Origin: a virus
DNA length: 41,002 nt
Strand: one strand, 5' to 3'
Virus record (IMG/VR): IMGVR_UViG_3300025168_000194
Location: 1-41,002 of that record
The notes beneath the pieces are model-generated. The model did no database searches and had not been told where the DNA came from. It worked only from the letters and a program-made list of their open reading frames with translations. The position numbers were made by a program, and so were the translations under genes. This document shows, piece by piece, positions 12,877 through 29,775 of the stretch (position 1 is the stretch's first letter; each line of letters starts with the position of its first letter).

Positions 12877-12877
12877 T

Positions 12878-13685: not shown

Positions 13686-13693
13686 AATTACTC

Positions 13694-14673: not shown

Positions 14674-14720
14674 ATTATACTGCTGTTTTCAGCTTATCGT
14701 AAACCTTTTTTGGAATAATA
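14674..14720 (-). promoter_or_regulatory. early promoter A with operator-like block, inside vsr
   Basis: Read on the minus strand: ATTATTCCAAAAAAGGTTTA (14717-14698 region), -35 TTTACG (14703-14698), 18-bp spacer, -10 TATAAT (14679-14674). The TAA inside the -10 is the vsr stop codon. The plus-strand 19-mer GTAAACCTTTTTTGGAATA (14699-14717) is identical to those at 23355 and 29690. It should drive the operon 14636-12224. Confidence 0.75.
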
Positions 14721-15109
14721 TTATTGTACAGTCTTTTAAGTCTGCCGGGCTTTACTATCTGGCATTCCCATATTGTCTCAACTTTCCAACCGAGTCTACG
14801 TAAATCCCTACGGTTTTTTGCGTCCCTCTTTCTGTTGGCTGCGAACTTGTCAACCCAGAACTCAGTGTTGGTCTTTGGAACTTTCCTACCCTTCTTGCAG
14901 TTGTGCTTGTGCCAGAAACAGCCGTTGACGAATACGCACGTGTTGTATCCGGGCATAACAATGTCGGGTTTACCCGGTAAGTCCTTTCTGTGCAGCGAGA
15001 ATCTAAGTCCCATACTGTGCAGATAGCTTCTTACGAGAATCTCCGGCTTTGTGTTCTTTGACTTTATGCAGGACATGATGCGGCTTCTTTGTGCTGTTGG
15101 ATTTTTCAT
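14675..15109 (-). CDS. vsr: Vsr-like very-short-patch mismatch endonuclease
   Basis: 144 residues. Family motifs: RSRIMSCIKSKNTKPE with Glu23, GLRFSLHRKDLPGKPDIV with catalytic-type Asp49, then VFVNGCFWHKHNCKKG (63-73) with the zinc-binding His/Cys cluster, and later WVDKFAANRKRDAKNRRDL and LGWKVETIWECQI. Vsr nicks at T:G mismatches formed by deamination of 5-methylcytosine and normally accompanies a C5 methyltransferase; one is present at 18341-19387. The last 15 residues (from about NIIPKKVYDKL to the stop) coincide with promoter A, so the C-terminus may be shaped by the promoter. It is the last gene of the promoter B operon. Confidence 0.9.
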   Translation of the reverse strand: MKNPTAQRSRIMSCIKSKNTKPEILVRSYLHSMGLRFSLHRKDLPGKPDIVMPGYNTCVFVNGCFWHKHNCKKGRKVPKTNTEFWVDKFAANRKRDAKNRRDLRRLGWKVETIWECQIVKPGRLKRLYNNIIPKKVYDKLKTAV

Positions 15110-15453
15110 CAGAAGGGCAGGTCGTTGTCCGGTTCTGGTTCTGTTGTCCAGGATTTAGTTTCCCATAGTTTCCTTGCCCACTCTTGCCCGAAAGTTGCCG
15201 GCAGTCCGAAACTAGCGAAGAACTTGTACTCGTCGCCGAACTTAACGTGCAGCTGGGAGTGGTGATGCTGGCATAGTGGTATTGCGTTTCTGTCATTGGC
15301 TTTAAGTGAAATGCCCCTGTGTCCGTCGTAGGGTTTCATAAGGTGGTGAGCCTGCACATCACCGGAATGTGAATAGTAGCCCGCCTTGCATATAAGACAA
15401 GGCAGGGTTCTTATCCACTTAAGGTGTTTACTGTCAGTAAACCTCTTTGCCAT
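15109..15453 (-). CDS. HNH-type zinc nuclease-like protein (DUF968-like)
   Basis: 114 residues. It holds the motifs LPCLICKAGYYSHSG, VQAHHLMKPYDGHRG, NDRNAIPLCQHHHSQLHV and GDEYKFFASFG, which form the Cys/His pattern of DUF968/HNH proteins of phage recombination regions. This could be a structure-specific or nicking nuclease. The C-terminus is EPEPDNDLPF, closely resembling the acidic-hydrophobic tip of bacterial SSB (...DDDIPF) that recruits repair enzymes. It lies between the SSB-like gene and vsr, joined by overlaps (ATGA at the vsr start). Confidence 0.75.
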   Translation of the reverse strand: MAKRFTDSKHLKWIRTLPCLICKAGYYSHSGDVQAHHLMKPYDGHRGISLKANDRNAIPLCQHHHSQLHVKFGDEYKFFASFGLPATFGQEWARKLWETKSWTTEPEPDNDLPF

Positions 15454-15833
15454 TAGAAAGGTATCTTCTTAGCCATAGCGTCTACGTCAGCGGTGTTACC
15501 GTCCTCTGTCATTTCTTGGAAGCCTATGCTGGTGAACGGCGTACCGTCCTTTGATTCCTTTGCCCAGCAACCCTGCTTGTAGACGACTCCGTCAATGGTT
15601 ACCTTGCCGCCCATGTCCGGCGTCTTGTCGCTGCGCTTCTCGTTGTTGAGGTGCAGCAGACCTATAGACATCATCATCTCGTACTTCTCCTCGCCCTGCT
15701 TGTCAAAGCTCTTGACTATAGCACCGTACTTAGTTTTGCCGTTTATCACGAACGGCCCCTTTCTCAGTATCTTCGCGTCGTTCTCATGCCAAAGATAGCC
15801 TTTCTTTTCGTCGTCGTATTGCTTATCGCTCAT
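15453..15833 (-). CDS. candidate single-stranded DNA-binding protein
   Basis: 126 residues with ATAGGAG upstream. The middle reads KILRKGPFVINGKTKYGAIV then SIGLLHLNN, GGKVTIDGVVYKQGCWAKES and GTPFTSIGFQEM, an all-beta pattern like DUF736 and other OB-fold-like phage proteins. The C-terminus is ...DVDAMAKKIPF, ending in Ile-Pro-Phe as SSB proteins do. It lies in the same operon as an annealing protein and exonuclease, where an SSB is expected and no other is seen. The OB-fold call is an inference from strand pattern and context. Confidence 0.55.
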   Translation of the reverse strand: MSDKQYDDEKKGYLWHENDAKILRKGPFVINGKTKYGAIVKSFDKQGEEKYEMMMSIGLLHLNNEKRSDKTPDMGGKVTIDGVVYKQGCWAKESKDGTPFTSIGFQEMTEDGNTADVDAMAKKIPF

Positions 15834-16104
15834 TTTTACTTACTCCTATAAGTTTGTATTCATAACCCTTTCTGTTAAACATTCTTCTCTTCTCAACAAC
15901 CTCGCCTATCATTGGTAGGTTGTACTTCACTCTATGCGGCTTTTTCCGCAATTCTCTTATGGCTGCGCTTATGGAAGGCTCACCATATAATACACCGGTC
16001 TTATGCTGTATAACTTCCTGTAGATTCCAGAAAGTCCACCAATTACCGTTACTCATGCACCTGTACACGCACTCAACCAAAGAAAACTTACTCACTGTAG
16101 GCAT
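15823..16104 (-). CDS. small winged-helix-like protein
   Basis: 93 residues. The first part (FSLVECVYRCMSNGNWWTFW, NLQEVIQHKTGVLYGEPSIS, AAIRELRKKPHRV) follows the helix-turn-helix order 'open helix, Trp-Thr turn, recognition helix SISAAIRELRK', and the wing is VEKRRMFNRKGYEYKLI. It is probably a DNA-binding protein used in recombination or regulation. The ATG overlaps the end of the annealing-protein gene; a GTG nine bases later is an alternative start. Confidence 0.55.
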   Translation of the reverse strand: MPTVSKFSLVECVYRCMSNGNWWTFWNLQEVIQHKTGVLYGEPSISAAIRELRKKPHRVKYNLPMIGEVVEKRRMFNRKGYEYKLIGVSKNER

Positions 16105-16759
16105 CTATGAGTTTGTCGTACGCATCTTTGTCCTGGTCGTTCTCACCTAGGTCATTGTAGGCTTTCTCAACGTTAGATGAATTCTTAGAGAATAACTTCT
16201 TCCTATCATCCTCGGAGAGATCGGCTACAGACTTTCTAAACGCGTTTATGTAATCATTGGTGGTTTTGTGGCTGCTAGCCTTCTTTCCGTCAATGCTCAT
16301 AAGCACGTACGCTTTTGCGCTTCTTACCGCATTTAGGCCGGGCTTGACCTCTCTGTCAATTAAATCCTCGCCCCTGTATATGTGCGCACCCAGACCGAAC
16401 ATTGACATGCACTTAGTAAGACAGCGCATCTTGGTGTTAGCCACGTCAACGACGTTCCAGTCTTTTTTTGCATTATTATTGTAGTCTGTTACAGCTAACC
16501 ACATACTGCGGCTGACGCCCTGTATCGTTACCGTGCAATGCACAGAGGCGGAACCGTCGGGATAGACCATGCAATCTAGTGAACCGTAAGTCGGATTATC
16601 AAACTCCCTAAACTCATAGTCTACTTCCGGGAAATACTTCTGTACCTCCTGCCACATGTCGGTCCAGCTAAGGTAATCAAACTTACCCTTCTTGTCCTTA
16701 ATTTTATCCATGCTAACCTTGTTCAAGGTTTCCCATATGTCTTTATAGTTTGCACTCAT
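16088..16759 (-). CDS. single-strand annealing protein (DUF1071/Sak3-like)
   Basis: 223 residues from ATG 16759, which overlaps the exonuclease stop (ATGA). The DUF1071 signature is complete: FDYLSWTDMWQEVQKYFPE (28-46), SVHCTVTIQGVSRSMWLAV (72-90), TDYNNNA, ANTKMRCLTKCMSMFGLGAH (108-127), IYRGEDL. This family (Rad52-superfamily Sak3-type annealing proteins) pairs complementary single strands in phage recombination, working with an exonuclease. The partner is the adjacent RecB-like gene. The C-terminal 80 residues are charged and variable, as is usual. Confidence 0.87.
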   Translation of the reverse strand: MSANYKDIWETLNKVSMDKIKDKKGKFDYLSWTDMWQEVQKYFPEVDYEFREFDNPTYGSLDCMVYPDGSASVHCTVTIQGVSRSMWLAVTDYNNNAKKDWNVVDVANTKMRCLTKCMSMFGLGAHIYRGEDLIDREVKPGLNAVRSAKAYVLMSIDGKKASSHKTTNDYINAFRKSVADLSEDDRKKLFSKNSSNVEKAYNDLGENDQDKDAYDKLIDAYSE

Positions 16760-17532
16760 TTTATACCCCACAGTTTTTTAGCAGCCGCAACGTCAGCCGG
16801 GTTATTCCAGCGCCAGTCGTCAAAGTCCGGATAGAACAATGAAGCCACTTGGTTAATATCATCCGAATAGGAAAGAACGTTCATCATTGCTAACGAAGCC
16901 TTTCGCAATTCCTCTAATCTCTCGTCTATGTTAGTTATAGCGACCGTAACTACCTCTGCTTTAGTTTTGGTAACGTGTATGAAGTCGGCTACAGCGTCGC
17001 AATTCTCTGCGTAGGCGTACAGGCTTAGCTGTCGGCATATGCTTGAAGGTGTCTTAGGCATCATGCGTCCGGTTGTCTTTATGTCCCTTATCATTCCAGG
17101 ATATTGAAGGTCAATGAAGCCTATGACTGGAATCGGCAGGTCAAAGTCTATCTCTATTCTTTTCTGTATGGATTCCGGCTTGCCTAGCTCTCTATAGAAT
17201 GGCATTGCAACCTCTAGGTATCTCTCTATGTTACCCCTCTCCAGTCTAACCTTGTCGTAGTCGTATTCATTGGACTTCTTGTTCTCTATCCACCTTTCGT
17301 CAAATATGTTAAGCGCCATGTTTATAGGTGCCGCAATATCGTTGCCCTCGTAGTCAAATGCCCAACTAATGGCGTCGTCTATAGCCGTGCCCCGCCACAT
17401 AGCCGGATTAGACGGCCCTCTATGACCGCTGACCTTTAGAATCCAGGACGCAGGATTTGATATGAACTGGTTGATGGAACTAGCGGACAGATGCTTTATT
17501 CCGTGCGCTTCAAATGGATTGTTATTACTCAT
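16756..17532 (-). CDS. RecB-like PD-(D/E)XK exonuclease
   Basis: 258 residues. Motifs of the RecB/lambda-exo-like nuclease fold: HLSASSINQFISNPASW (14-30), NPAMWRGTAIDDAI (42-55), IGFIDLQYPGMIRDIKTTG (137-155) with Asp141, Asp150 and Lys152 as the catalytic core, and QLSLYAYAEN (168-177) as the QxxxY motif. It should resect dsDNA ends to make substrate for the annealing protein encoded by the overlapping downstream gene. It is the first gene of the promoter B minus-strand operon. GAGGTAATTAA precedes its ATG. Confidence 0.85.
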   Translation of the reverse strand: MSNNNPFEAHGIKHLSASSINQFISNPASWILKVSGHRGPSNPAMWRGTAIDDAISWAFDYEGNDIAAPINMALNIFDERWIENKKSNEYDYDKVRLERGNIERYLEVAMPFYRELGKPESIQKRIEIDFDLPIPVIGFIDLQYPGMIRDIKTTGRMMPKTPSSICRQLSLYAYAENCDAVADFIHVTKTKAEVVTVAITNIDERLEELRKASLAMMNVLSYSDDINQVASLFYPDFDDWRWNNPADVAAAKKLWGIK

Positions 17533-17554
17533 TTAATTACCTCTAATTTATGTC

Positions 17555-17606
17555 TTGTCAATTAATGTATAAGTGATTATAATTCATATTTGGAATAATT
17601 AAAACC
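17555..17606 (+). promoter_or_regulatory. plus-strand promoter for the Cro-like gene, with operator-like site
   Basis: TTGTCA (17555-17560), 17-bp spacer, TATAAT (17578-17583). The sequence TTTGGAATAAT at 17589-17599 lies at the expected start of transcription, so a bound regulator would block it. The leader to ATG 17612 is short and has no Shine-Dalgarno. Confidence 0.7.
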
Positions 17607-17611
17607 TTTTT
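17576..17611 (-). promoter_or_regulatory. early promoter B (minus strand)
   Basis: On the minus strand: AAAAAGG, -35 TTTTAA (17604-17599), 17-bp spacer that contains TTATTCCAAA, -10 TATAAT (17581-17576). It has the same AAAAAGGTTT-to-TATAAT layout as promoters A, C and D. It should drive 17532-14675 (recombination operon). The -10 overlaps that of the plus-strand promoter. Confidence 0.65.
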
Positions 17612-17821
17612 ATGCAGCTAAAATCATATCTGACAGAAAACAAACACACCCAAATGTCTTTCATAGAACTAATGGAGATGGCTACAGGCGTAAGGGTTCC
17701 GCAAGGCACATTCGCTAAGTGGATAACCGGTTCTCGTATTCCGAGAAAGCGTGAGATGATTATTCTTTACGAGATTACCGAAGGTCAGGTGCAACCAAAC
17801 GATTTTTACATCAAGGAATAA
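17612..17821 (+). CDS. Cro/CI-like helix-turn-helix regulator
   Basis: 69 residues. It has the size of a Cro protein and a helix-turn-helix arrangement: MSFIELMEMATGVRVPQGTF, then AKWITGSRIPRKREMIILYE, then ITEGQVQPNDFYIKE. The second helix plus 'W.tG.RiPr...m..i...T.g.v.p.dfy' is typical of small phage repressors. It is the only obvious regulator in the window and stands at the divergent promoter pair B. I infer that it binds the TTTGGAATAAT-type sites there and at 23414. No recombinase or CI-type peptidase domain accompanies it. Confidence 0.75.
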   Translation: MQLKSYLTENKHTQMSFIELMEMATGVRVPQGTFAKWITGSRIPRKREMIILYEITEGQVQPNDFYIKE

Positions 17822-17823
17822 AA

Positions 17824-18348
17824 ATGGAAACTAAGAAAGAAATAGTAAACGTTGAACTGGAAAAACTAGTTCCGTACGAAAACAATTCAAGAAACCACAC
17901 AGACGAGCAGATTTCACAGATAGCCAGTTCAATAGACGAATTCGGTTTCACTAATCCGGTCTTGATTGACGAGAACAATTCAGTATTGGCTGGGCACGGA
18001 AGAGTCAAGGCAGCTGAGCTACTATCGCTTAAAGACATACCAACAGTTAAGATACTAGGCCTCACAGAAAAGCAGAAAAAAGCCTATGTTATTGCAGACA
18101 ATAAACTAGCATTAAACGCCACATGGAATGACGAAGTCCTACAGAACGAGCTTCAAGACCTATTCAACAGCGACTTTGACCTAAGCATACTCGGTATGAA
18201 CGAAAACGAGATAAACAGCTTTCTTGGCGATTCTCTTAACAACATAGCGGACGAGAAAGACTACGTAGGTGCAGAGGAAATAACGCTTGATGACATAGAT
18301 GACTTCAAACACGAGTGTCCTAGATGCGGTTTCAACTTCAATGACTGA
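17824..18348 (+). CDS. ParB/Srx-like protein paired with methyltransferase
   Basis: 174 residues. The N-terminal 85 residues are a ParB-like domain: VELEKLVPYENNSRNHTDEQ, IASSIDEFGFTNPVLIDEN, VLAGHGRVKAAELLSL (GHGR at 57-60), IPTVKILGLTEKQKKAYVIA. Such domains are often fused to, or encoded next to, phage DNA methyltransferases; some ParB-type domains bind nucleotide triphosphates. The C-terminus has one CPRCGF knuckle (165-170), as if cut from a longer zinc-binding or fused form. The last 8 bp overlap the methyltransferase start. Confidence 0.8.
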   Translation: METKKEIVNVELEKLVPYENNSRNHTDEQISQIASSIDEFGFTNPVLIDENNSVLAGHGRVKAAELLSLKDIPTVKILGLTEKQKKAYVIADNKLALNATWNDEVLQNELQDLFNSDFDLSILGMNENEINSFLGDSLNNIADEKDYVGAEEITLDDIDDFKHECPRCGFNFND

Positions 18349-19387
18349 CGGCAGAAAACACGGACCTTGGTATTTCAAGGACCTTGAAAGCATAAATAAA
18401 ACCGGAGTCAACGTATTTAGCACCTTTAGTTGCGGCGGCGGCTCAACTATGGGATACAAACTAGCTGGATGCAACGTAAAGGGTTGCCTAGAGATAGACG
18501 ATAAGCTGATGGAGATGTACATAGAAAACCACAAGCCCAAGTACAGCTACAAGATGGCTATACAGGACTTCAACAAGAAACCATTTGAGGAGATTCCAGA
18601 CGACCTTAAGGACCTTGACATACTAGACGGCTCACCGCCATGCTCGGTTTTCAGCACGGCAGGGGCAAGGGAAAAGAAATGGGGTAAGGAATATTATTTC
18701 AGAGAGGGCCAGGAGGTACAGAAACTTGACGATCTATTCTTTCACTTCGTTGAAACAGCTAACAAGCTCCAGCCAAAGATTGTAATAGCCGAAAACGTGC
18801 GCGGTTTGATTCTCGGAAATGCCAGAGGTTACGTGAAGGAGATATTCATAGCGCTTGACAAAGCAGGCTACGACGTGCAGTTGTTCGTGCTGAACGCCGC
18901 TAAAATGGGCGTTCCACAGTCAAGGGTAAGAACATTTTTTGTAGCCAGGCGAAAAGACCTTCAACTATGTAAACTAGAGTTGGACTTCAACGAGCCTAAC
19001 CTATCCTTCTTTGACGCAATGAAGGGTTCAAATAAGATACAGGAAAGAAAGCAGATAAGGCACACTTTGAACGACATGTGGAGAGCGACCAAGCCCGGAA
19101 AGAACCTAGGCTCAGCTAACGATAAGGGTCATTTTTTCAGTCTCTACAAGATAAATCCTAATCTTCCGGTCAACACGGTGACGGCTAACGGACCCACGCA
19201 CATTCTTTGGGATAAACCATACTATCTATCAGACCAGGAGCTCATAAGACTGCAGACGTTTCCAGAGGATTACAACTTTATGAAACAACAGACTCAATAC
19301 GTGACTGGAATGTCAGTACCTCCATACATGATCCAAAGACTGGTGCTGGAGATAAACAGGCAATGGAAGCTGCCTACTTTACGTTGA
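18341..19387 (+). CDS. C5-cytosine DNA methyltransferase
   Basis: 348 residues from ATG 18341. Motif I VFSTFSCGGGSTMGYKLAG (25-43), motif IV DGSPPCSVFS with catalytic Cys101, motif VI ENVRGL (151-156), motif VIII QSRVR (193-197), and late motifs LIRLQTFPEDYNF and TGMSVPPYM are all present, so the enzyme should be active. The region between motifs VIII and IX, which reads target sequence, is short. It most likely protects phage DNA from restriction; the Vsr-like nuclease would repair deaminated sites. The 3' end runs 14 bp into the convergent primase-helicase gene. Confidence 0.9.
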   Translation: MTDGRKHGPWYFKDLESINKTGVNVFSTFSCGGGSTMGYKLAGCNVKGCLEIDDKLMEMYIENHKPKYSYKMAIQDFNKKPFEEIPDDLKDLDILDGSPPCSVFSTAGAREKKWGKEYYFREGQEVQKLDDLFFHFVETANKLQPKIVIAENVRGLILGNARGYVKEIFIALDKAGYDVQLFVLNAAKMGVPQSRVRTFFVARRKDLQLCKLELDFNEPNLSFFDAMKGSNKIQERKQIRHTLNDMWRATKPGKNLGSANDKGHFFSLYKINPNLPVNTVTANGPTHILWDKPYYLSDQELIRLQTFPEDYNFMKQQTQYVTGMSVPPYMIQRLVLEINRQWKLPTLR

Positions 19388-21092
19388 ACTGATCTAAATA
19401 GGCCGTGTCCCAGTCAACTTCATCTATGTCGTTGTACTTCTCAAAACACCGTCTGTCGGTGTTGTACTTAAACTTGCACTCGCCTATCTTTCCGTACAAG
19501 TCCTGCTCCCTAATCTTTCTGGTTATCACGTTTGTTGAGTTGTCCTCAAAGTCCCTGTGAACGGTAAGTACGGCATCGGATTGATTGTGCCAGTGGCTAG
19601 CACCGGATATGTCGTACGCCGTCGGCGGTAGATAGTTTCCGTCGTTCGTCTTGGGTAGCTTTGTTGGATGGGCTATAACCCAGCAGACTATCTCGTAAAC
19701 CCTACTAAACCTTTTGCAAAGCGATATGAAGTCTCTGATGTGTTCGTCCTCTCTCTGGTTTCCCTGCCTAGCAGCCGAAACCTCGTTGAATGGGTCTATG
19801 ACCAAACCGTTTATTCCGTGCTTATAGACGGCTGACTGGGCTACTGAAAGTATAAGTTGTATTGATGGTATAGCGTCCTTGGTCTCTATGAAGAAGAAAT
19901 GGTTATTTATGAAATCCAGTCCGGCATGTAGCTCTGATTTAGTCATGCGGTTCTTAACCCCCTCGTCAAAGGGTTTTCTGAGATACATCTGCACCAATCG
20001 CCTTATGTGCATTGAAGTAGAGTGCTCTGGTGAGAATAGCGCGAATTTCCATCCGTTCCTCTCAGCTAGGTTTATAAGTATCTGATCCAAAAAAACCGAC
20101 TTACCGTGGTTAGGTATTCCGGTAATGACGTGAAACGTACCAGTCATTATCTTGTAGATGTCGTCCAGACCCTCCATGCCGATCTCTATTGGCTTCTCAT
20201 AGTCACCCTCATACAGATCGTTTAACTGCGAAAAGTAGTCCGAAGCAGTGTAGAGCCCCTCTATAGGATACGGAACGGCAAGCTCAACTATCTCCCTAAG
20301 TTTCATAGGGCCGTGTTTGATCAGAACCTCGTTGGCGTCCTTGCAGTTATCTGGAATCTCAACGTACCAGCATATGTCCTTTCCGAACCTATGTAATAAC
20401 TCCTTATGCAGAGCCTTTCCGCTATCGTCGTTGTCAGTGAACAATATTATCTTTGTAGCAGTCAACTTGCAGTTCTCTAATGCAGAAAACCTTTTGTCGT
20501 TGTTCTCACCCTTAAATTCCTTGGGCGCACCATTTGGCAAAGTCGTTCCATAATCAAAGCCGATCTCTGCAAGAGCCAACACGTCAAACTCACCCTCGGT
20601 AAATATGACAACGTCCGAACCGCACACGCGATCGTAGTTATACAATATTGACTTAGCGTTGGCAGACTGTCTGAATTTCTTGTCCCTAGTTCTATACTTA
20701 ACGTTTGTAAGCTCTCCTAATTCGTCAAAATACTGGAAGGCGCACCATTCGTTTTCCTGCACGACCTTATATCTATCGCAGGTGTCCTTACTTATCTTTC
20801 TCTCTTTCATGTATTCATAGAAAGAAGCTTGGGGTTTATCAGGAACGATTGGCGGACTGGGCCGTACATAGCTTATCTTTCTTTTAGGCTCGTATATAGA
20901 GCCGGTTCCCTTTCCACCAGTCCACTCGCAGTGATGGCATTTCCAGACAACGCTGTCGTTTGTTATCGTGACTGATAACGGATTGTCTCTAGGATTGTGG
21001 GGTGGTTGGCACTGAGGGCACTTGACCTTCTGGTTGCCTTCCTGCTGGTGGCTTAGGTTTATGTTGTTATCTCTGAGTGTCTTATCAATCAT
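19374..21092 (-). CDS. T7 gp4-like primase-helicase
   Basis: 572 residues. N-terminal zinc ribbon Cys25-x2-Cys28 and Cys52-x2-Cys55; TOPRIM primase core IFTEGEFDVLALAE (163-176, Glu166) and LFTDNDDSGKAL (217-228); RecA-type helicase with Walker A GIPNHGKS (325-332), FSPEHS (353-358), Walker B GLVIDPFNEV (429-438) and IAHPTK. The full bifunctional T7 gp4/Twinkle layout is present. It would unwind and prime at phage forks. No DNA polymerase gene is in the window. It is the last large gene of the promoter C operon. Confidence 0.93.
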   Translation of the reverse strand: MIDKTLRDNNINLSHQQEGNQKVKCPQCQPPHNPRDNPLSVTITNDSVVWKCHHCEWTGGKGTGSIYEPKRKISYVRPSPPIVPDKPQASFYEYMKERKISKDTCDRYKVVQENEWCAFQYFDELGELTNVKYRTRDKKFRQSANAKSILYNYDRVCGSDVVIFTEGEFDVLALAEIGFDYGTTLPNGAPKEFKGENNDKRFSALENCKLTATKIILFTDNDDSGKALHKELLHRFGKDICWYVEIPDNCKDANEVLIKHGPMKLREIVELAVPYPIEGLYTASDYFSQLNDLYEGDYEKPIEIGMEGLDDIYKIMTGTFHVITGIPNHGKSVFLDQILINLAERNGWKFALFSPEHSTSMHIRRLVQMYLRKPFDEGVKNRMTKSELHAGLDFINNHFFFIETKDAIPSIQLILSVAQSAVYKHGINGLVIDPFNEVSAARQGNQREDEHIRDFISLCKRFSRVYEIVCWVIAHPTKLPKTNDGNYLPPTAYDISGASHWHNQSDAVLTVHRDFEDNSTNVITRKIREQDLYGKIGECKFKYNTDRRCFEKYNDIDEVDWDTAYLDQFNVK

Positions 21093-21094
21093 AA

Positions 21095-21181
21095 TTAGTC
21101 AGCTAAGAAATAGAATATGAAAAGCGGTAGGCTTATGATCAATGTTATCTTTATGATGTGTCTGTGAAATATTTCTTCCAT
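21095..21181 (-). CDS. 28-residue membrane microprotein
   Basis: It reads MEEIFHRHIIKITLIISLPL then FIFYFLAD: a charged start and one hydrophobic helix. AGGATAAAATG gives a ribosome site inside the end of the O-like gene, and only two bases separate its stop from the start of the primase-helicase gene. It might be a small membrane protein or simply couple translation. Function unknown. Confidence 0.4.
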   Translation of the reverse strand: MEEIFHRHIIKITLIISLPLFIFYFLAD

Positions 21182-21182
21182 T

Positions 21183-21809
21183 TTATCCTGCAAGGTTGTT
21201 AAGGTTCTTATTTTTAATCGGTTTGTCAAGAAAGTCCAAATACCTCTGCTGATTTAGAAAGGTTGAAGCGTGAGGAATAAACTTCTCCTCTGTCAGTATG
21301 TTCTCCTGCGCAAAAACCTTGGTAGCGTAGATGATCTTTGAATAGTGTTTCTCGTCGTACTTTGAGAAACAGACGCTAGCTTGGTGCTTTCCGACCTTTC
21401 TTGGATAGTGTTTCCAGAACATCTCAAACTCTAGTATATATTCTTTAGTGTTATCTTTAGTATTGGTGGTCGTTGGTGACACTAGGCTAGTATCCTGTAC
21501 AACCTTATGGGTAGTGTTGTCAGCAACACTAGGGGTAACGTTCAGAGTCAGATGATAGCGATTTGAAGTGTAGCCTCCGTTGTCAAGTTTTCTGCGCTCT
21601 ACCCTCAGCAATCCCATATCCTCAAACTCCTTGATTGCGTTCTGTATCGTCCTGGTTGTTTCCAGACCGATCATTCTAGCTAGGTGTTTGTAGGACGGAT
21701 AGCAAGTACCCTTTTCGTCAGCGTAGTTAGCCAGTATGACCAACACAAGTTTCTTCGTCGGTGATAGGCCGTTGATTTTCAAAGCCTGATTGAGACATTC
21801 TATTGACAT
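21183..21809 (-). CDS. O-like replication initiator with N-terminal helix-turn-helix
   Basis: 208 residues. The N-terminal 80 residues are a HTH_36/replication-protein-type winged helix (LNQALKINGLSPTKKLVLVI, LANYADEKGTCYPSYKHLAR, MIGLETTRTIQNAIKEFEDM). Residues 90-125 are a Thr/Asn/Val-rich linker. The C-terminus has FEMFWKHYPRKVGKHQASVC and EKFIPHASTFLNQQRYLDF, the pattern found in phage replication proteins that recruit the helicase. The linker DNA holds short inverted and direct repeats, as the lambda origin does within gene O. It is followed by the primase-helicase gene. Confidence 0.75.
   Translation of the reverse strand: MSIECLNQALKINGLSPTKKLVLVILANYADEKGTCYPSYKHLARMIGLETTRTIQNAIKEFEDMGLLRVERRKLDNGGYTSNRYHLTLNVTPSVADNTTHKVVQDTSLVSPTTTNTKDNTKEYILEFEMFWKHYPRKVGKHQASVCFSKYDEKHYSKIIYATKVFAQENILTEEKFIPHASTFLNQQRYLDFLDKPIKNKNLNNLAG
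21446..21533. other. candidate replication origin within the O-like gene
   Basis: A perfect hairpin TAGTGTTG-TCAG-CAACACTA lies at 21512-21531. TAGTGTTA recurs at 21446-21453 and ACACTAGG at 21479-21486 and 21526-21533. These iteron-like repeats sit in the DNA encoding the unstructured linker of the initiator, the place where lambda has its origin. Spacing is not strictly regular, and no AT-rich block of known type was proven. Confidence 0.45.
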
Positions 21810-21873
21810 ATTATTTCCTTTATTTGAATGGCAGTTTTATAGGTCTGCCAACTCTTTATTCCATTAATGAATA

Positions 21874-22059
21874 TTATATTATATCTTTATCCATTTCCGC
21901 AAAAAGCCTTCCGACCTTTTTCATTCGGTCCTTTATTGCAAGGTCAACGAACTTACTAAACACCAATCCGTGTTTCTGGCAGAACTCCTTTGCAGTACTC
22001 TTGGTTTCCTTGGGGCAGTTAACAGCTTCAAGCCCATACCTTTTCATGTTGTCTGGCAT
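21874..22059 (-). CDS. hypothetical protein
   Basis: 61 residues; AAGGTGA precedes the ATG, which overlaps the upstream stop (TAATG). The sequence (KRYGLEAVNCPKETKSTAKE, FCQKHGLVFSKFVDLAIKDR, MKKVGRLFAEM) looks like one helix pair with a ribbon-helix-helix-like feel (...SKFVDLAIKDRM). It could be a small DNA-binding protein. Between its end and the O-like gene start lie 64 bases with only the AAAGGAAATAAT ribosome site recognised. Confidence 0.5.
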   Translation of the reverse strand: MPDNMKRYGLEAVNCPKETKSTAKEFCQKHGLVFSKFVDLAIKDRMKKVGRLFAEMDKDII

Positions 22060-22304
22060 TAGCTCACCTTCTGGAAATAATGGTCGTTAGAGTTGCATAT
22101 GGAATCCCACTTGCTCCGCCTAACTTTTCTCCAAGACCTAGAGTTAAACAACTGCTTAGACTTAAAGTAGTCTTTGATATATACCCACTTGTAGCCGAGC
22201 CTAACGGCCCGGACGCCTATGCCTATGTTAATTCCCTTGACGGCATTCTTAATAGACATATTGTTAAACCTATATAGTTCGTAATTTTGCTTTTTACTTT
22301 TCAT
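22059..22304 (-). CDS. hypothetical basic protein
   Basis: 81 residues from ATG 22304 with GAGGT upstream; a longer upstream extension would overlap the previous gene and lacks a ribosome site. The protein is very basic (KSKKQNYELYRFNNMSIKNA, VGIRAV-type Gly stretch, YFKSKQLFNSRSWRKVRRSK). The phrase NMSIKNAVKGINIGIGVRAV followed by RLGYKWVYIKDY resembles a helix-turn-helix with a following wing. It may bind DNA. No family recognised. Confidence 0.55.
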   Translation of the reverse strand: MKSKKQNYELYRFNNMSIKNAVKGINIGIGVRAVRLGYKWVYIKDYFKSKQLFNSRSWRKVRRSKWDSICNSNDHYFQKVS

Positions 22305-22315
22305 AAGTTCTACCT

Positions 22316-22672
22316 CTATCCGTGTGGAAAAAGACTTTTCATTTCTTTTTCTAAATCTAAAAGACAATAAAATTCAATTCTTTCATTGTTGGATTCTTCT
22401 AAGTTATATTTAACAAGCAGGTCTATAACTCCAGAACGAATCTGTAAAAACCGATTTATTTTATCTTTAGGAACTTCATTCTGTTTGACAGATATGAATT
22501 CGTTAAGAATAATTGAAAGAGCAAAGGGTAGTTTATCCCAATCATCTGTAGGAAAAGATACATAAGTGGGCTTTTCCTTATAGTTGATTATCCATTCATA
22601 TAAAGCCAGGAGTTTTTCCCAGTGCTCTGATGAAAGCGCTTCTTTAACGTTAATCACTTTTTGATTATTCAT
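22316..22672 (-). CDS. hypothetical protein
   Basis: 118 residues from ATG 22672, chosen for the GAGGTGA site about seven bases upstream; a GTG nine bases earlier is possible. Mostly helical (EALSSEHWEKLLALYEWIIN, KLPFALSIILNEFISVKQNE, RFLQIRSGVIDLLVKYNLEE, LLDLEKEMKSLFPHG). AT-rich compared with the primase-helicase gene. No family recognised. Confidence 0.55.
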   Translation of the reverse strand: MNNQKVINVKEALSSEHWEKLLALYEWIINYKEKPTYVSFPTDDWDKLPFALSIILNEFISVKQNEVPKDKINRFLQIRSGVIDLLVKYNLEESNNERIEFYCLLDLEKEMKSLFPHG

Positions 22673-22886
22673 ATAGCTCACCTCTGTTCAGATCGGATTC
22701 ATCCCTTAGGCTCGTATACTGGAAGTTAATGTACTCCTTGAATATATCATCAAGATTTTTAGCGTTGACCACACTGGTGTTAAGCAGCGCAATCTTTATC
22801 TCGGCTTTGAGCCTTAGATATTCCCAGATCAACAGATCGTCAACAGAGTCCTGTATCTCCTGCATTGTTTCTTTTGTCAGGTGCAT
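22665..22886 (-). CDS. hypothetical protein
   Basis: 73 residues; AAGGAGA precedes the ATG and the ATG overlaps the preceding stop (TAATG). Helical and acidic: TMQEIQDSVDDLLIWEYLRL, KAEIKIALLNTSVVNAKNLD, DIFKEYINFQYTSLRDE. No family recognised. Confidence 0.55.
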   Translation of the reverse strand: MHLTKETMQEIQDSVDDLLIWEYLRLKAEIKIALLNTSVVNAKNLDDIFKEYINFQYTSLRDESDLNRGELYE

Positions 22887-23290
22887 TATAGAGTCTCCTT
22901 GAATTTATTAAGCATCTCTACATCATCATGCTTGATAATTGTTTCGGGCATTACTAACAACATTATTGTTAGATATATTTCAATAAACCTTTCTTCTAAT
23001 TTATGTTTCGTTCCAGTTATACCGAAGTAATTTTTCACATGACCAACCTGCCAATGTCTAGTAGGCTTCACACCTAACTTACAATACATGGACAGGTCTC
23101 TCTTAGTGCAACTAAGATTCCATAAAGGGATGTTAGTTTTATTTTGGTTATCAGGATTACTTTCATAAAGTATCTGTTCTGCAAACTGGTCCCAGAAAGG
23201 GACACCCGGTTTTTGCATAGCAACTATCTTATTACGTAGTTTATCTTTAGTCGTTTCTTTGGTGAAATACTTAAGTGTTGAGTCATTCAT
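22886..23290 (-). CDS. hypothetical protein, first gene of promoter C minus operon
   Basis: 134 residues with AGGTATAAAATG. Features are a basic N-terminal part (LKYFTKETTKDKLRNKIVAM), PGVPFWDQFAEQIL, a Cys-containing middle (LWNLSCTKRDLSMYCKLGVK), TRHWQVGHVKNYFGITGTKH, and a hydrophobic helix (EIYLTIMLLVM). The YFGITG segment and preceding helices resemble a helix-turn-helix with its recognition helix. Function unknown; being promoter-proximal it may be among the earliest proteins made. Confidence 0.55.
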   Translation of the reverse strand: MNDSTLKYFTKETTKDKLRNKIVAMQKPGVPFWDQFAEQILYESNPDNQNKTNIPLWNLSCTKRDLSMYCKLGVKPTRHWQVGHVKNYFGITGTKHKLEERFIEIYLTIMLLVMPETIIKHDDVEMLNKFKETL

Positions 23291-23329
23291 TTTATACCTG
23301 CTCTGTGAGCATTAATTTATTAAGTACCC

Positions 23330-23373
23330 ATACTAACGCACATTTTGAATAATAGTAAACCTTTTTTGGAATA
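23330..23373 (-). promoter_or_regulatory. early promoter C (minus strand)
   Basis: On the minus strand: TATTCCAAAAAAGGTTTAC (23373-23355), -35 TTTACT (23359-23354), 18-bp spacer containing ATTATTCAAAA, -10 TAGTAT (23335-23330). It has the same layout as promoters A and D. It drives 23290-19374. The 23291-23449 gap contains only this and the opposing promoter. Confidence 0.75.
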
Positions 23374-23382
23374 TTTATTTAT

Positions 23383-23428
23383 TTGTATAGTGAAAAGGCT
23401 TTGTTTATAATCATTTTTGGAATAATAT
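23383..23428 (+). promoter_or_regulatory. plus-strand promoter before the terminase genes
   Basis: TTGTAT (23383-23388), 17-bp spacer, TATAAT (23406-23411), followed directly by CATTTTTGGAATAATATG (23412-23429). The placement of TTTGGAATAAT just after the -10 repeats that of the Cro-like gene promoter. It probably starts transcription of 23450-28082. Confidence 0.65.
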
Positions 23429-23449
23429 GTTGGTAATAACAAAGAATAT

Positions 23450-24007
23450 ATGAGCAAAAAAAACAATACAGCCAAATTGACTGAAAGCCTAAAGCTGAAA
23501 ATTAGAAACGAATTTGTTCAAGGCTTAGGCGAAAAAGACAGCAAGAAGTTCCCAACATTAGACGAGCTCATAAAGAAACACAAGGTGGCACAAAGCACTC
23601 TATATAGAACCGCCCAGAATGAGAACTGGAAACTGCAGAAGGACCAGTTCCAACAAAGCTACCTAGAAAAACTTGACAGGGCTCGGACAAAAGAGATGGC
23701 TGAGGAATCCATAAAGATGGACAACAACTCAATCAATCTAGCTAAGGCTCTCTACCAGACAGTCGGACAGGTGATACAAAAGAACAACAGCGACATTAGG
23801 AACGGAAGAAAGGGATTGCCGCCTACCCAGATCAACGCACTCGCTAACGCGGCTGTCGTTGCTCAAAGACTGGCGAAACTTGCTTTAGGAGAAGCTACAC
23901 ATAACATAGATGCAAAAGTCACAGAAAATGACAGCTTCAGAAGAGCTATGGAACTGCTTGACTCAGTTGAATCCAGCAGAAGCAAAGGCGATAGAACTAC
24001 GCACTGA
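23450..24007 (+). CDS. terS: terminase small subunit
   Basis: 185 residues. The N-terminal part (LKIRNEFVQGLGEKDSKKFP, TLDELIKKHKVAQSTLYRTA, QNENWKLQKDQFQQSYLEKL) is a helix-turn-helix DNA-binding domain of the TerS type ('hkVa.sTlYr.a..e.W...r...'). The central helices (INLAKALYQTVGQVIQKNNS, NALANAAVVAQRLAKLALGE) would form the oligomer core. It recognises the packaging site. The C-terminus overlaps the large subunit gene by up to 98 bp. Position right before TerL makes the call firm although sequence signatures are weak. Confidence 0.8.
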   Translation: MSKKNNTAKLTESLKLKIRNEFVQGLGEKDSKKFPTLDELIKKHKVAQSTLYRTAQNENWKLQKDQFQQSYLEKLDRARTKEMAEESIKMDNNSINLAKALYQTVGQVIQKNNSDIRNGRKGLPPTQINALANAAVVAQRLAKLALGEATHNIDAKVTENDSFRRAMELLDSVESSRSKGDRTTH

Positions 24008-25214: not shown

Positions 25215-27235
25215 TGGCAGAACAAACATTTCTACAAAAACTGTTTAACAATAAACCTGTTGAACGGAAGAACACAAACATGATGGGTTACTTTGGTGTA
25301 GGAACCGAAGAAGGCAAGACCTATAAATACGCGGACCTAGCAAAAGAGGGCTACCTAAAAAACGCAATCGTCTACAGGTGCGTGAATGAGATAAGCAAAG
25401 GCGCAAGTGCAGTGCCTTTTATTATCAAAGCAGGCGATCAAATCATAGAACAGCATCCACTCATAGATTTATTAAAGCGACCTAATCCCTTGCAATCTTA
25501 CAGCGAGTTCTTTAACAGCCTGTTCGGTTATGTCTTACTCAGTGGCAATGCTTACATACTAAAGACTGGTTCTGATATGGGTGCGCCAAAGGAACTGCAT
25601 CAGCTTAGACCTGATCGTATAACTATTAAAGGCAGTGGTAAGCCCATACCTGAGAAGTATGAATACATGGTTAATGGAAGGGTCGCTAACAGCTATCTCA
25701 TTGATCAGGAAAACGGATTCAGCGAACTTAAACACATTAAACTATGGAATCCTCTGGATGATTACTACGGTCTCAGTCCAATGAGTGCCGCGGCAGTTGA
25801 GGTGGATCAATTTAACATGTCCAGCAAGCACAATGTCAATCTTCTGCAGAACGGAGCAAGACCGAGTGGCGCAGTAGTATTCAAGCCACAGGATGATGCA
25901 GGCTTTGCAGTTAATCTAAGTGAATCTCAAAGACAGCAACTAATCACTGATATGAACAATAGGTTCACTGGCGCAAACAATGCAGGCAGACCTTTGTTGC
26001 TAGAGGGAGACTTTGACTGGAAAGAGATGGGCCTCAGTCCTAAGGACATGGATTTTCTAAACCTAAAGCACATGAGTGCCACGGACATAGCCTTATGTTT
26101 TGGTGTCCCTAGTCAGCTTGTAGGAGTTCCTGATAGTCAGACCTACGCCAATGTAGCAGAAGCAAGACTTGCTTTGTATGAAGAAACAATTATTCCGCAT
26201 CTCAGAAAGATGGCATCCGATCTCAACGAATGGTTAGTGCCACTGTTTGACGACCGCCTGACCCTAGAGTTTGATATAGATTCTATTCCTGCCCTGTCAG
26301 AGAGAGTCAAGAGAACCTACGAGAATGTAACCTCTGCGGTAAGAGAGGGCATCATGACCAGGAATGAAGCAAGGCAACAGCTTGGCTTAGAGCCGGTTGA
26401 CGGCGCTGACGATCTATACATATCAGCCAACCTATTTCCACTCACTGACGAGGGCGTGGACAAACCTGAGAATCCGGTCAACGAGGAAGATTTAGAGGAT
26501 TACGACGACGAGGAAACCGATAAGGAAATAGCATTGCTGCTGCAGGAGGAAAAGGCGCTGTCCGACATTGATACCGTGCCGACCGACGGAATGGTGACAG
26601 AGGCTAGAAGAGGGTTGGACTGGAGAAAGGAGTTCAATCGCGGCGGAACCGCCGTAGGCGTAGCAAGGGCTAATTCAATAGTCGCCCGGGAAAATCTATC
26701 AATATCAACCATCAAAAGAATGTACAGCTTTTTCAGCAGGCACGAGGTAGACAAACAAGGCCAGGGATTTGATCGCGGTGAGGAAGGCTATCCAAGCGCA
26801 GGACGTATTGCCTGGGCTCTATGGGGCGGAGACGCAGGATTCTCATGGGCCAAGAAGAAGCGACAGCAGATAATCACCGAGGAGGATAAGGAGTTTGCCC
26901 TGCAGGAACACGTTGAGGTGAAAGAGGACGAGAAGGCCCTAACCGGAAAGGTTAAGGAAGGTCTAAAAAAAAAGGTGGAGGACCATAACGAGAAGCACGG
27001 CAACAGTAAGACGAAAAGAGCCAATCTGAGAATGCTAGAAGCGGTCTTTAGGAGAGGTGTAGGTGCATACAGAACGAATCCATCAAGCGTTAGACCTAGC
27101 GTTAGTTCTCCAGACCAATGGGCTTACGCGAGGGTTAACAGCTTCCTGAGGGCTTTATCTTCCGGTAAGTTCAGAGGTGGCAGACACGACACTGATCTGT
27201 TTCCGAAGGGCCATCCGCTATCCAGTAAGACCTGA
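25214..27235 (+). CDS. portal protein (HK97-type) with C-terminal accessory domains
   Basis: 673 residues. Residues 1-410 are a phage portal of the HK97 family: AIVYRCVNEISKGASAVPF, HPLIDLLKRPNPLQSYSEFF, GNAYILKTG, LHQLRPDRI, YYGLSPMSAAAVEVDQF, LLQNGARPSGAVV, ALCFGVPSQLVGV, MTRNEARQQLGLEPV. Residues 430-480 are an acidic linker. Residues 480-575 hold an extra domain (MVTEARRGLDWRKEFNRGGT, ISTIKRMYSFFSRHEVD, YPSAGRIAWALWGGDAGFSW). Residues 610-670 hold another (LRMLEAVFRRGVGAYRTNPS, QWAYARVNSFLRAL). Ordinary portals end near 410. The extra modules, which I have seen in other phage structural proteins, are uncharacterised. Confidence 0.9.
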   Translation: MAEQTFLQKLFNNKPVERKNTNMMGYFGVGTEEGKTYKYADLAKEGYLKNAIVYRCVNEISKGASAVPFIIKAGDQIIEQHPLIDLLKRPNPLQSYSEFFNSLFGYVLLSGNAYILKTGSDMGAPKELHQLRPDRITIKGSGKPIPEKYEYMVNGRVANSYLIDQENGFSELKHIKLWNPLDDYYGLSPMSAAAVEVDQFNMSSKHNVNLLQNGARPSGAVVFKPQDDAGFAVNLSESQRQQLITDMNNRFTGANNAGRPLLLEGDFDWKEMGLSPKDMDFLNLKHMSATDIALCFGVPSQLVGVPDSQTYANVAEARLALYEETIIPHLRKMASDLNEWLVPLFDDRLTLEFDIDSIPALSERVKRTYENVTSAVREGIMTRNEARQQLGLEPVDGADDLYISANLFPLTDEGVDKPENPVNEEDLEDYDDEETDKEIALLLQEEKALSDIDTVPTDGMVTEARRGLDWRKEFNRGGTAVGVARANSIVARENLSISTIKRMYSFFSRHEVDKQGQGFDRGEEGYPSAGRIAWALWGGDAGFSWAKKKRQQIITEEDKEFALQEHVEVKEDEKALTGKVKEGLKKKVEDHNEKHGNSKTKRANLRMLEAVFRRGVGAYRTNPSSVRPSVSSPDQWAYARVNSFLRALSSGKFRGGRHDTDLFPKGHPLSSKT

Positions 27236-27257
27236 TTCATAGGAAACGGAGAGTCTT

Positions 27258-28082
27258 TTGAATCGGGCAACCAATCGCAAGAAACTAAACAACTTCCGGC
27301 AGGGAAGGATAAACACAAGGCTAGAGGTCAGGAGACAACTGGTACTCAGGAACAATCTTGAAAAGAGGTTCTACAGAAAGATGAACACTCTCTTTAGAAA
27401 GTTCGTCAACGTGCACATGCACTTATACAGTCAATACGGTATATATGAGCCCGAAGTGGCGACACAGTCGCTTAACGAGGACTTCTTTCCGCTCATACTC
27501 GCCCACTACAAAAGGATATTCCAGTCAATATACAAACTCAACGAGGACAAGTACGAGTATTTAAGAAAAGCGGACGAAGCCTTTGTGTTTGGAAGAAGCG
27601 TGGACTTTGAGGCCGTAGTCGCTCAATACTTCACCGGCAGGCAATTGATATTAGCTGGCATATCAGCAAGAATGTCAAACCGAATAGGTAAGCTGATTGA
27701 GCAGGGAAGGGCTGACAATCTAACGCTACCGCAGATAGCCAAATCGGTTTCGGAAAAGTTCCTTCCAATCAGCAGAAGTCGTGCAGCCTTGATAGCTAGA
27801 ACCGAAACTCACAACGCGGCTTCATTCGCAAACCACGCATATCACGCAACAGTGGAGAAGGACTTAGGCGTCAAGATGCTTAAAAAGTGGGTAGCAACGA
27901 ATGACGCAAGAACCAGACCGGCCCATTCAGCAGCCAGTGGACAGATAGTTGACATGTCTGAGGATTTCATTGTTGGCGGTGCGCCTATGGGCTTCGCAGG
28001 GGACTCCAAGGGTGGTGCGGCAAACGTGGTGAACTGCAGGTGCGTTATAGTCTACGCCGACGAGAGGGACATGGAGAGCTAG
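27258..28082 (+). CDS. phage head morphogenesis protein (Mu F-like)
   Basis: 274 residues, TTG start with GGAGAG upstream. The C-terminal half carries the Phage_Mu_F signature: RSRAALIARTETHNAASFAN, MLKKWVATNDARTRPAHSAA, SGQIVDMSEDF, PMGFAGDSKGGAANVVNCRC, VIVYADE. This family helps assemble the head, and relatives of lambda gpC/SPP1 gp7 act at the portal. The N-terminal 120 residues are helical and basic. It stands after the portal, as usual. The gap after it separates it from the prohead protease by a minus-strand pair. Confidence 0.9.
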   Translation: MNRATNRKKLNNFRQGRINTRLEVRRQLVLRNNLEKRFYRKMNTLFRKFVNVHMHLYSQYGIYEPEVATQSLNEDFFPLILAHYKRIFQSIYKLNEDKYEYLRKADEAFVFGRSVDFEAVVAQYFTGRQLILAGISARMSNRIGKLIEQGRADNLTLPQIAKSVSEKFLPISRSRAALIARTETHNAASFANHAYHATVEKDLGVKMLKKWVATNDARTRPAHSAASGQIVDMSEDFIVGGAPMGFAGDSKGGAANVVNCRCVIVYADERDMES

Positions 28083-28088
28083 TGTTGA

Positions 28089-28128
28089 TAGTGGGTTAAC
28101 AGAGACACTTTAACCAAGAGACCCACTA
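28089..28128. repeat. nested hairpin in the 28083-28242 gap
   Basis: TAGTGGGT (28089-28096) pairs with ACCCACTA (28121-28128). Inside, TTAA (28096-28099) can pair with TTAA (28110-28113), giving a nested stem with an eight-base bulge; GGTTAA/TTAACC is an alternative stem. There is no T-run, so it is not a standard terminator. The rest of the 160-bp gap shows no gene and contains a TATAAT-like sequence on the minus strand near 28186. Confidence 0.45.
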
Positions 28129-28242
28129 CCATTTACAGCATCACTAGAAAGACTGTCATTTACCTCTCAGCCAGTGCCATTTTTATTATAACGCATCAAG
28201 CGTCAATTCTAAGAAACATACAAAAGTGGGCCGTAAATACCT

Positions 28243-29415
28243 TTACTTCTGATTGAACTCGTAATCCTTGGTAATAACTCCAACCTCTTTGCTACCTCTG
28301 AAATGCGCTCTAACGAATGTGTGTCTGCCGTTTGCCAATTTTCTCATGTGCTTGCGAACGCTATGAAAGGCAGTTCCAGAGCTTCTACAGCTACCGCTTG
28401 ATCCATCTTTGGTAGATTGATTTCCGTAGAGGTTTATCTTCAGGTTCTTATGCGCAAACTTAGGCTTGCTACTAAGAGCCGTTGTTGTGAACTTGGTCGG
28501 CGTGTCAATAAAGACATTTTGCCTGCCCTCAACGTCCTTCTCGTCAATTATCGTCGGATGTTGCAGAGCAATCATAAAGTATCTAAACCTGTTTATAATT
28601 TCCATGATAAACGTTCTGGACAGTTCACCGTTTACTTTGAGATGCTCGTTGTCACCTATCAGATATTTAGTGAGTGGGCTGTCAGCAAGTTGTATTTTGT
28701 AGTAAAAGCTGCCGTCCTCCAACCTGGTCGCGTTATGTCCGAAATATATCGTGTACTGGTTCAAGTCCCATACGAAGTGTTTGTTAGCCTTATCCCATAT
28801 CAGCATCTGGAAAGAGAAGCATCCTGACACTGACTCGCGATCGTCAAATATATCTGATACGCCCTCTGGTAAAGTTTTACTTCTCCCAAAAATTCTTCTG
28901 AAAAAACTTGGCGTATGGTCTAGTTTATATTCTGCAAGAGCTTCCTGGTAATCCTCATTGTGGTCGTGTATCAAAATATTGTTTATCGTGTGCTCTGTTT
29001 CAACCTGCAGGAATACAGATTTATACGGTAGGTAGTAAAGCAGTTCCTTCTCTATCGTGTTGTGCTCCTTTTCCGTCAGTCCATCATCCTCGCATATGTC
29101 AAGATAGAATTTAGCGGCCTGAGATACCTGCTGTGCAAAGAGCTTTTGCTCACTGTAGACAATGTCTCTTGGCAGCAAAGAAATGTTACCAGAGAAATTT
29201 TTCTGGTAGGCATAGTCAAACGACATATCCCTCGTGTACCCGTAGTATTGAATGTGTGCTTCCACCGGATTATCCACCTTTTTTAAACCCTCCGTCTGTT
29301 TGTAATTTGGAGCAGGCAGAAAGGTCCGACCGAACTTTACTTGATTCTTGTCTGATGCGTTAGGCTGTATGAGTTGATGTCCGTGCAGAAGTTTCTGTAA
29401 TATTAGATTGTTCAT
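28243..29415 (-). CDS. hypothetical protein, minus-strand island in head block
   Basis: 390 residues, ATGA overlap with the gene before it. No known enzyme motif is seen. The body is mixed (NPVEAHIQYYGYTRDMSFDY, FAQQVSQAAKFYLDICEDDG, YLPYKSVFLQVETEHTINNI, FSFQMLIWDKANKHFVWDLN, RTFIMEIINRFRYFMIALQH). The C-terminal 45 residues (SGTAFHSVRKHMRKLANGRH then VRAHFRGSKEVGVITKDYEF) follow an 'R.H.R.l..G....V..H.RG....GV..K.Y' pattern that I recall from other uncharacterised phage proteins. Its own promoter (D) and opposite strand suggest expression separate from the structural genes. It may be an early host-interaction protein. Confidence 0.6.
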   Translation of the reverse strand: MNNLILQKLLHGHQLIQPNASDKNQVKFGRTFLPAPNYKQTEGLKKVDNPVEAHIQYYGYTRDMSFDYAYQKNFSGNISLLPRDIVYSEQKLFAQQVSQAAKFYLDICEDDGLTEKEHNTIEKELLYYLPYKSVFLQVETEHTINNILIHDHNEDYQEALAEYKLDHTPSFFRRIFGRSKTLPEGVSDIFDDRESVSGCFSFQMLIWDKANKHFVWDLNQYTIYFGHNATRLEDGSFYYKIQLADSPLTKYLIGDNEHLKVNGELSRTFIMEIINRFRYFMIALQHPTIIDEKDVEGRQNVFIDTPTKFTTTALSSKPKFAHKNLKINLYGNQSTKDGSSGSCRSSGTAFHSVRKHMRKLANGRHTFVRAHFRGSKEVGVITKDYEFNQK

Positions 29416-29636
29416 TTTATCTCGCTTAGCAATTTATCCTGTACTCTCTTCATTCCTTTAAGTTCACTACGAGCAATTTTTATATCGCTCTCATTAGCAG
29501 TCTTTTCAACATATGTGTCGTCATGTTTATAGAATTGTCTATTATCAATAAAGAATTGTAGATTAGCTTCGTATTCGCAAATTGCGTATTCCAGAGCCAT
29601 TCTCAGTGCATCCTGTTCAAGTTTAGTAAGTTTCAT
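29412..29636 (-). CDS. hypothetical protein
   Basis: 74 residues with GGGAGATAAAATG. It is helical throughout: LEQDALRMALEYAICEYEAN, LQFFIDNRQFYKHDDTYVEK, ESDIKIARSELKGMKRVQDK. A coiled-coil-like dimer is plausible. It is the first gene after promoter D and overlaps the 390-residue gene. No family recognised. Confidence 0.6.
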   Translation of the reverse strand: MKLTKLEQDALRMALEYAICEYEANLQFFIDNRQFYKHDDTYVEKTANESDIKIARSELKGMKRVQDKLLSEIK

Positions 29637-29664
29637 TTTATCTCCCGTTTCAATTTATAACTTA

Positions 29665-29708
29665 ATTATATGCAAGTATCTGCTAATTAGTAAACCTTTT
29701 TTGGAATA
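29665..29708 (-). promoter_or_regulatory. early promoter D (minus strand)
   Basis: On the minus strand: TATTCCAAAAAAGGTTTAC (29708-29690), -35 TTTACT (29694-29689), 18-bp spacer, -10 TATAAT (29670-29665). It shares 19 identical bases with promoters A and C and drives 29636-28243. The rest of the 29637-29775 gap shows no clear plus-strand promoter for the protease gene, though TATATATTG-type sequences occur near 29730. Confidence 0.75.
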
Positions 29709-29775
29709 TTATTAATTGAACTAAATATTGACTATATATTGTGCTTATGTTTCCCTTTATGTACTATATGTGGAT

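Follow-up and report, generated by a model that had tools for sequence, protein, structure and literature searches.

A promoter-joined operator at separate operons of an uncultured phage and its candidate Cro-like regulator

Several separate minus-strand operons of the virus record IMGVR_UViG_3300025168_000194 are preceded by closely matching promoter sequences, which raises the question of whether these operons are controlled together and through which site. The window analyzed here is the entire record of 41,002 bases, with a G+C content of 41%. An earlier note on this DNA had described four loci, A to D, as one family of early phage promoters, perhaps controlled through an A-rich block beside the -35 box, and had named binding by the Cro-like protein as a check. 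Sequence comparison shows promoters A, C and D to be repeats of a single composite element, a sigma-70-type promoter joined to an operator, and favors, by a little, a reading in which they belong to the regulon of an autoregulated Cro-like protein that probably represses them.

The 19-mer GTAAACCTTTTTTGGAATA occurs exactly three times in a scan of the whole window, exclusively on the plus strand, at 14699-14717, 23355-23373 and 29690-29708. No further match with up to three mismatches was found, the chance expectation was 0.02, and three copies were never reached in shuffled sequences. Read on the minus strand, A, C and D have the form TATTCCAAAAAAGG-TTTAC(G/T)-N18-TATAAT, with TAGTAT as the -10 box at C. 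The exactly shared 19-mer and the 18-bp spacer claimed for these three promoters were thus confirmed, and a run of minus-strand open reading frames (ORFs) lies behind each of them, as had also been described (Table 1). Promoter C heads the replication operon and is divergent from a terminase small subunit-like gene. Promoter D stands at the head of a minus-strand island within the late module. Promoter A falls within the 3'-terminal coding part of a Vsr-like ORF (14675-15109, minus strand), whose stop codon lies within the -10 box. The names HNH-, Vsr-, ParB-, methyltransferase-, terminase small subunit- and prohead protease-like were assigned from reading of the sequence and from gene neighborhood.

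A scan of viral contigs returned the exact 19-mer in 36 stretches. As a sample independent of the motif, 80 loci were collected through the primase protein. These loci contained 24 sites at up to one mismatch and 30 at up to two, compared with none for reversed or permuted motifs; the records of the relatives are partly fragments, and the Fisher and shuffle values take no account of relatedness. In 13 of 13 site-bearing records the sites lay on a single strand, with one to five early-type sites per record and no match to the reversed pattern. A match to the 19-mer in L026 lacked a promoter-like -10 box and looks like chance. A survey of promoters with a loose pattern was too noisy and was not used.

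The sites recur at equivalent places. Slot A follows the HNH-like gene, slots C and D lie opposite the terminase small subunit-like and prohead protease-like genes, respectively, and some relatives also have a site at slot B, opposite the helix-turn-helix gene. A further site was found in relatives ahead of the replication initiator gene. The earlier note would have been refuted by loss of the motif in relatives that keep the operons; for A, C and D the motif is instead retained at the same places, which gives good support to the proposed family of coregulated promoters. The genes behind equivalent promoter places differ, which indicates that the promoter is kept while the cargo is exchanged. 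At slot A, 15 distinct ORFs forming 11 families were counted, and some families occupy different slots in different phages. ArdC-type anti-restriction proteins (PF08401 and PF18818) are encoded immediately behind the promoter in two relatives (L007:3555-4439, minus strand; L088:18722-19603, plus strand), and L008 encodes another member of the ArdC family. The slot of operon D, a minus-strand island in the plus-strand late module, holds unrelated genes at the same place in L036 and L044.

The overlap of promoter A with a coding sequence allowed two kinds of conservation to be separated. In L028 and L214 the same 19-mer lies inside the end of the vsr ortholog in a reading frame different from that of the window. 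A variant of the 19-mer follows the vsr stop codon in L070, and L041, where vsr is missing from this position, has one behind the stop codon of HNH. Conservation as codons was ruled out by the different frames of the two vsr orthologs, and the persistence of the 19-mer across these frames, and of its variants after stop codons, shows that selection acts on the DNA. Few relatives have the Vsr-like gene itself; it is flanked by the HNH-like gene and promoter A, as though inserted before the promoter.

Sixty nonredundant promoters gave the consensus TATTCC-N5-(A/G)GG-TT(T/G)AC. The letters TATTCC and GGTT were demanded by the search that assembled this set, so that only the other columns and a separate spacing test inform on conservation. 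The best -10 box lay mostly 16-18 bp downstream, with a secondary group at 14, and its mean score was 3.04 compared with 1.10 in shuffled tails. The -35 box was mostly the weak TTTAC, and some variants carried a full TTGACA, which places the -35 box directly after the GG. For the spacing test, 160 nonredundant intergenic WWTTCC sites from loci with a regulator of the PQxT class were used, with the right half left unassumed. GGTT followed at N6 in 38 cases, at N5 in two and at N7 in four, and GGAA followed at N5 or N6 in 12. The distance from the operator to the -35 box is fixed, whereas the spacer between the -35 and -10 boxes is variable. With a spacer of 16-18 bp, standard promoter numbering would put the center of CC-N6-GG between about -39.5 and -41.5. 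The 10-mer CC-A6-GG, the block tentatively proposed earlier, is the core of the larger site TATTCC-N5-RGG, and its standing as the whole control site is not supported.

Locus B (17576-17611) had been counted as the fourth copy, but the 19-mer is absent there and only AAACCTTTTT is common with A, C and D. In the two closest relatives, AAAAAGGTTT of locus B is replaced by AAAATTGTTT (L028) and AAAAATGTTT (L041), and TTATAATTCATATTTGGAATAATT is identical in both. Locus B was rejected as a family member because AAAAAGGTTT, with its AAAAAGG, is missing in these relatives and the overlapping regulator operator is retained. TTATAATTCATATTTGGAATAATT is an operator directly downstream of the -10 box of the plus-strand promoter of the helix-turn-helix gene, and this promoter is the conserved feature of the locus. 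Its boxes are close to consensus. The operator, ATTCATATTTGGAAT in the window, lies on the -10 box and the presumed start, and relatives carry ATTCCATTTAGGAAT, ATTCCAAAAAGGAAT and others in its stead. A minus-strand promoter TTTTAA-N17-TATAAT may also be present at B, in a layout different from that of A, C and D.

The block upstream of the -35 box corresponds to one half of the palindromic operator TTCC-N5-GGAA. When palindromic dyads were counted in intergenic DNA with no preset motif, a CC-N5-GG core with class-specific flanks was obtained. The flanks were TTC-N7-GAA and TCC-N5-GGA with regulators of the PQxT class, CCC-N5-GGG with S[HKR]xA and ACC-N5-GGT with NPxTN. In the nonredundant set, GGAAT was present upstream of the regulator gene in 24 of 25 PQxT cases (4.0 expected) compared with 2 of 21 NPxTN cases, and GGTTA in 14 of the 21 NPxTN cases (3.6 expected). 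At slot A, the half-site occurred in 10 of 13 PQxT loci and in none of six S[HKR]xA loci. A search for GGTTGCA-type promoters in the S[HKR]xA loci gave a result not clearly above the control. The half-site thus changes with the recognition helix, which is suggestive of a link to the regulator. In the window, the same operator block occurs again at 23414-23429, inside the plus-strand terminase promoter, where the half-site is placed between the -35 and -10 boxes. The spacer of promoter C contains an extra degenerate half-site, TTTTGAATAATAG, at 23341-23353 on the plus strand.

The candidate binder is encoded next to locus B and is followed by a ParB-like and a cytosine methyltransferase-like gene. 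The protein of the window itself gave no significant match to PF01381 (HTH_3), and profile searches with it alone were unhelpful, so that homologs were required. Among these, 26 of 34 matched PF01381 at E ≤ 1, with a best value of 2.3e-06, and through them the regulator is assigned to the Cro/C1 HTH_3 family. The modeled fold is all-helical with a predicted local distance difference test (pLDDT) score of 95 in an alignment-based model; the single-sequence model was poor. The best matches in the PDB are Cro/CI-like, including the N-terminal domain of TP901-1 CI and YdaS, with a template modeling (TM) score of about 0.7 but E values above 0.05. Control through the block by this protein, as suggested earlier, gained indirect support from the operators at its own promoter and from the half-sites matched to its helix; CC-A6-GG as the entire site did not.

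The following sequence of events would account for these features. The TATTCC-N5-RGG site abuts the upstream edge of the -35 box, centered at about -40 to -42, and the 69-amino-acid protein would bind this operator family, probably as a dimer. On entry, host RNA polymerase would fire the early promoters and the regulator would accumulate. Its binding beside the -35 box would then turn the early operons down together. The operator on the -10 box and start region of its own strong promoter would cap the regulator level by negative autoregulation, a control in which the divergent operon B would share. The sequences themselves show the element, its fixed geometry, its retention at set places, the palindrome and the half-site that varies with the recognition helix; from them we infer the binder, its repressive effect and the timing, and the term early is plausible from gene content.

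The choice of repression depends on two observations. In L011 and L012 the exonuclease operon (B) carries a -40 site, but in the window and L028 its operator is located within the spacer. If the logic of this operon is conserved, both arrangements would mean repression. In addition, small phage helix-turn-helix proteins of the Aca type, which have operators in strong early promoters, were repressors in direct tests (PMC9410906). Together these make repression somewhat more likely than activation, by our estimate about twice as probable. Several points weigh against repression by the Cro-like protein. The early operator is asymmetric (TATTCC and GGTTT) and has N6, compared with N5 in the symmetric sites, and a center near -41 is also the classic place of an activator. 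The covariation of the half-site was not significant at the terminase slot, and the regulator classes represent few evolutionary events, which leaves the covariation suggestive and short of decisive. Furthermore, repressing the early, own and terminase promoters together leaves the onset of late genes unexplained, and a simple early-to-late switch does not account for the operator in the terminase promoter.

The leading alternative is activation of A, C and D by the Cro-like protein. From about -41 the protein would contact sigma region 4 and aid a weak -35 box, while repressing its own and the terminase promoters, and the operons would be delayed-early. A precedent is lambda CI, which at OR2 activates PRM from an operator centered near -41/-42 and touching the -35 box (class II activation). 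The early sites have this position: they lie beside the -35 box at a fixed distance, with centers at -39.5 to -41.5, and this distance is kept while the -35/-10 spacer varies. The boxes are also of the kind that would need help, with mostly weak TTTAC and spacers often of 16 or 18 bp, and the promoter of the regulator is near consensus. However, some copies retain the operator despite a full TTGACA, orthologous versions of operon B have the operator within the spacer (window) or at -40 (L011 and L012), and repression is the usual role of such a 69-amino-acid regulator. We regard activation as possible but considerably less probable than not. A broader version, in which an integrase-less phage family would have this protein as its only temporal switch, activating all early operons from the fixed -41 site and repressing itself and the packaging promoter from core sites, with the operator-promoter unit as a standard header for cargo (anti-restriction genes included) swapped among slots and phages, appears unlikely.

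It is improbable that the block acts as an UP element alone, an A-tract copied about the genome that strengthens a host-read promoter with no dedicated regulator. The AAAAAA shortly upstream of the -35 box resembles a proximal UP subsite, and the operator center is A-rich in most copies. However, ATTTA, GTTTT, GTAAT and AGTCT also occur at the center, so that the A-tract alone is insufficient to explain the block. The spacing of CC and GG is fixed while the center is variable, conservation is not confined to the A/T tract, and the same half-site is found downstream of the -10 box of other promoters; a pure UP element was rejected. That a host regulator rather than a phage protein binds the site is more improbable still, since the half-site follows the phage recognition helix and an operator lies on the promoter of the phage regulator gene itself.

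The features of the window are collected in Table 1. The prohead protease-like gene has a plus-strand promoter, TTGTGC-N17-TACTAT at 29739-29767, without an operator, and this promoter is kept in distant relatives such as L015, L063 and L090. A small hairpin immediately before the ribosome-binding site, for example GCTC(ACA)GAGC, was found in 9 of 42 early leaders (1.0 expected), in the window at 23299-23328 on the minus strand. ATAAATTGA is a frequent word in early leaders. Two adjacent long low-complexity proteins, one Asn/Thr-rich and one Glu-rich, are encoded after the tail genes (6002-7129 and 7099-9351, plus strand).

Table 1. Promoters, operons and regulator gene of the window
Feature	Position	Strand	Description
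Promoter A	14674-14717	-	operator TATTCCAAAAAAGG 14717-14704; -35 TTTACG 14703-14698; N18; -10 TATAAT 14679-14674
Promoter C	23330-23373	-	operator TATTCCAAAAAAGG 23373-23360; -35 TTTACT 23359-23354; N18; -10 TAGTAT 23335-23330
Promoter D	29665-29708	-	operator TATTCCAAAAAAGG 29708-29695; -35 TTTACT 29694-29689; N18; -10 TATAAT 29670-29665
Regulator gene promoter	17555-17599	+	-35 TTGTCA 17555-17560; N17; -10 TATAAT 17578-17583; operator ATTCATATTTGGAAT 17582-17596; conserved feature of locus B
Possible minus promoter of operon B	17576-17604	-	putative; -35 TTTTAA 17604-17599; N17; -10 TATAAT; operator within spacer
Late (terminase) promoter	23400-23429	+	-35 TTTGTT; N17 containing TTTTTGGAA; -10 TAATAT; half-site 23414-23429; boxes assigned from conservation
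Regulator	17612-17821	+	69-amino-acid Cro-like helix-turn-helix protein; proposed binder
Operon A	12224-14636	-	small ORFs of unknown function; 2OG-Fe(II) oxygenase (12224-12781)
Operon B	14675-17532	-	PD-(D/E)XK exonuclease-like, Sak-like annealing protein, small ORFs, HNH-like and Vsr-like genes
Operon C	19374-23290	-	O-like replication initiation protein, primase-helicase, small ORFs
Operon D	28243-29636	-	two genes of unknown function

The arrangement was compared with known systems. As in the lambdoid Cro/CI switches, a small helix-turn-helix regulator, palindromic operators and, probably, autoregulation at a divergent promoter are present; unlike in those switches, operators occur at a number of separate operons, always in the same promoter geometry, and no integrase was found. 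A search for the tyrosine integrase domain PF00589 gave no match in 23 records, many of which are fragments, and prophage immunity of an integrating phage was set aside on this ground. The likeness to lambda PRM/OR2 is an operator center near -41/-42 adjoining the -35 box, with many promoters here rather than one. Cluster A mycobacteriophages (L5, Trixie) likewise have many copies of a site in one orientation, matched in sequence to the repressor of each phage (PMC6550527). Their stoperators are 20-30 asymmetric sites, mostly outside promoters, that block elongation (PMC6550527), whereas the window has three 19-mer sites and two related ones, all at promoters. Aca repressors resemble the present system as small phage helix-turn-helix proteins with inverted-repeat sites in strong early-gene promoters (PMC9410906), and here the regulator gene likewise has, in its core promoter, the inverted repeat expected of an autoregulator, ATTCATATTTGGAAT, on the -10 and start region. 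Unlike here, where the site heads several other operons, Aca proteins control their own operon; no acr genes were identified, with no test aimed at acr in the regulator's operon. In archaeal viruses, a regulatory sequence of early and anti-defense genes forms a conserved promoter unit before exchangeable early genes and is usable as bait (PMC11065993), to which the ArdC genes here are a parallel; the promoters there are archaeal, and here a sigma-70-type promoter is joined to an operator. The present case is set apart by a single operator, joined to the promoter with constant geometry, at each of several operons, in phages with no tyrosine integrase detected.

A host search among genome contigs returned nothing. 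Terminase and capsid matches in isolates reached at most about 51% identity, with Microcystis, Roseobacter and Rhizobium phages among others. For this large group of uncultured phages, the element would offer a readable control circuit, in which a single regulator and a single operator code go with a promoter unit that keeps its place whatever genes lie behind it. The joint variation of half-site and recognition helix makes Cro-like specificity testable without phage culture. Because the genes that follow the promoter unit vary, with ArdC genes among them, the unit could serve as bait for unknown early and anti-defense genes in viral metagenomes.

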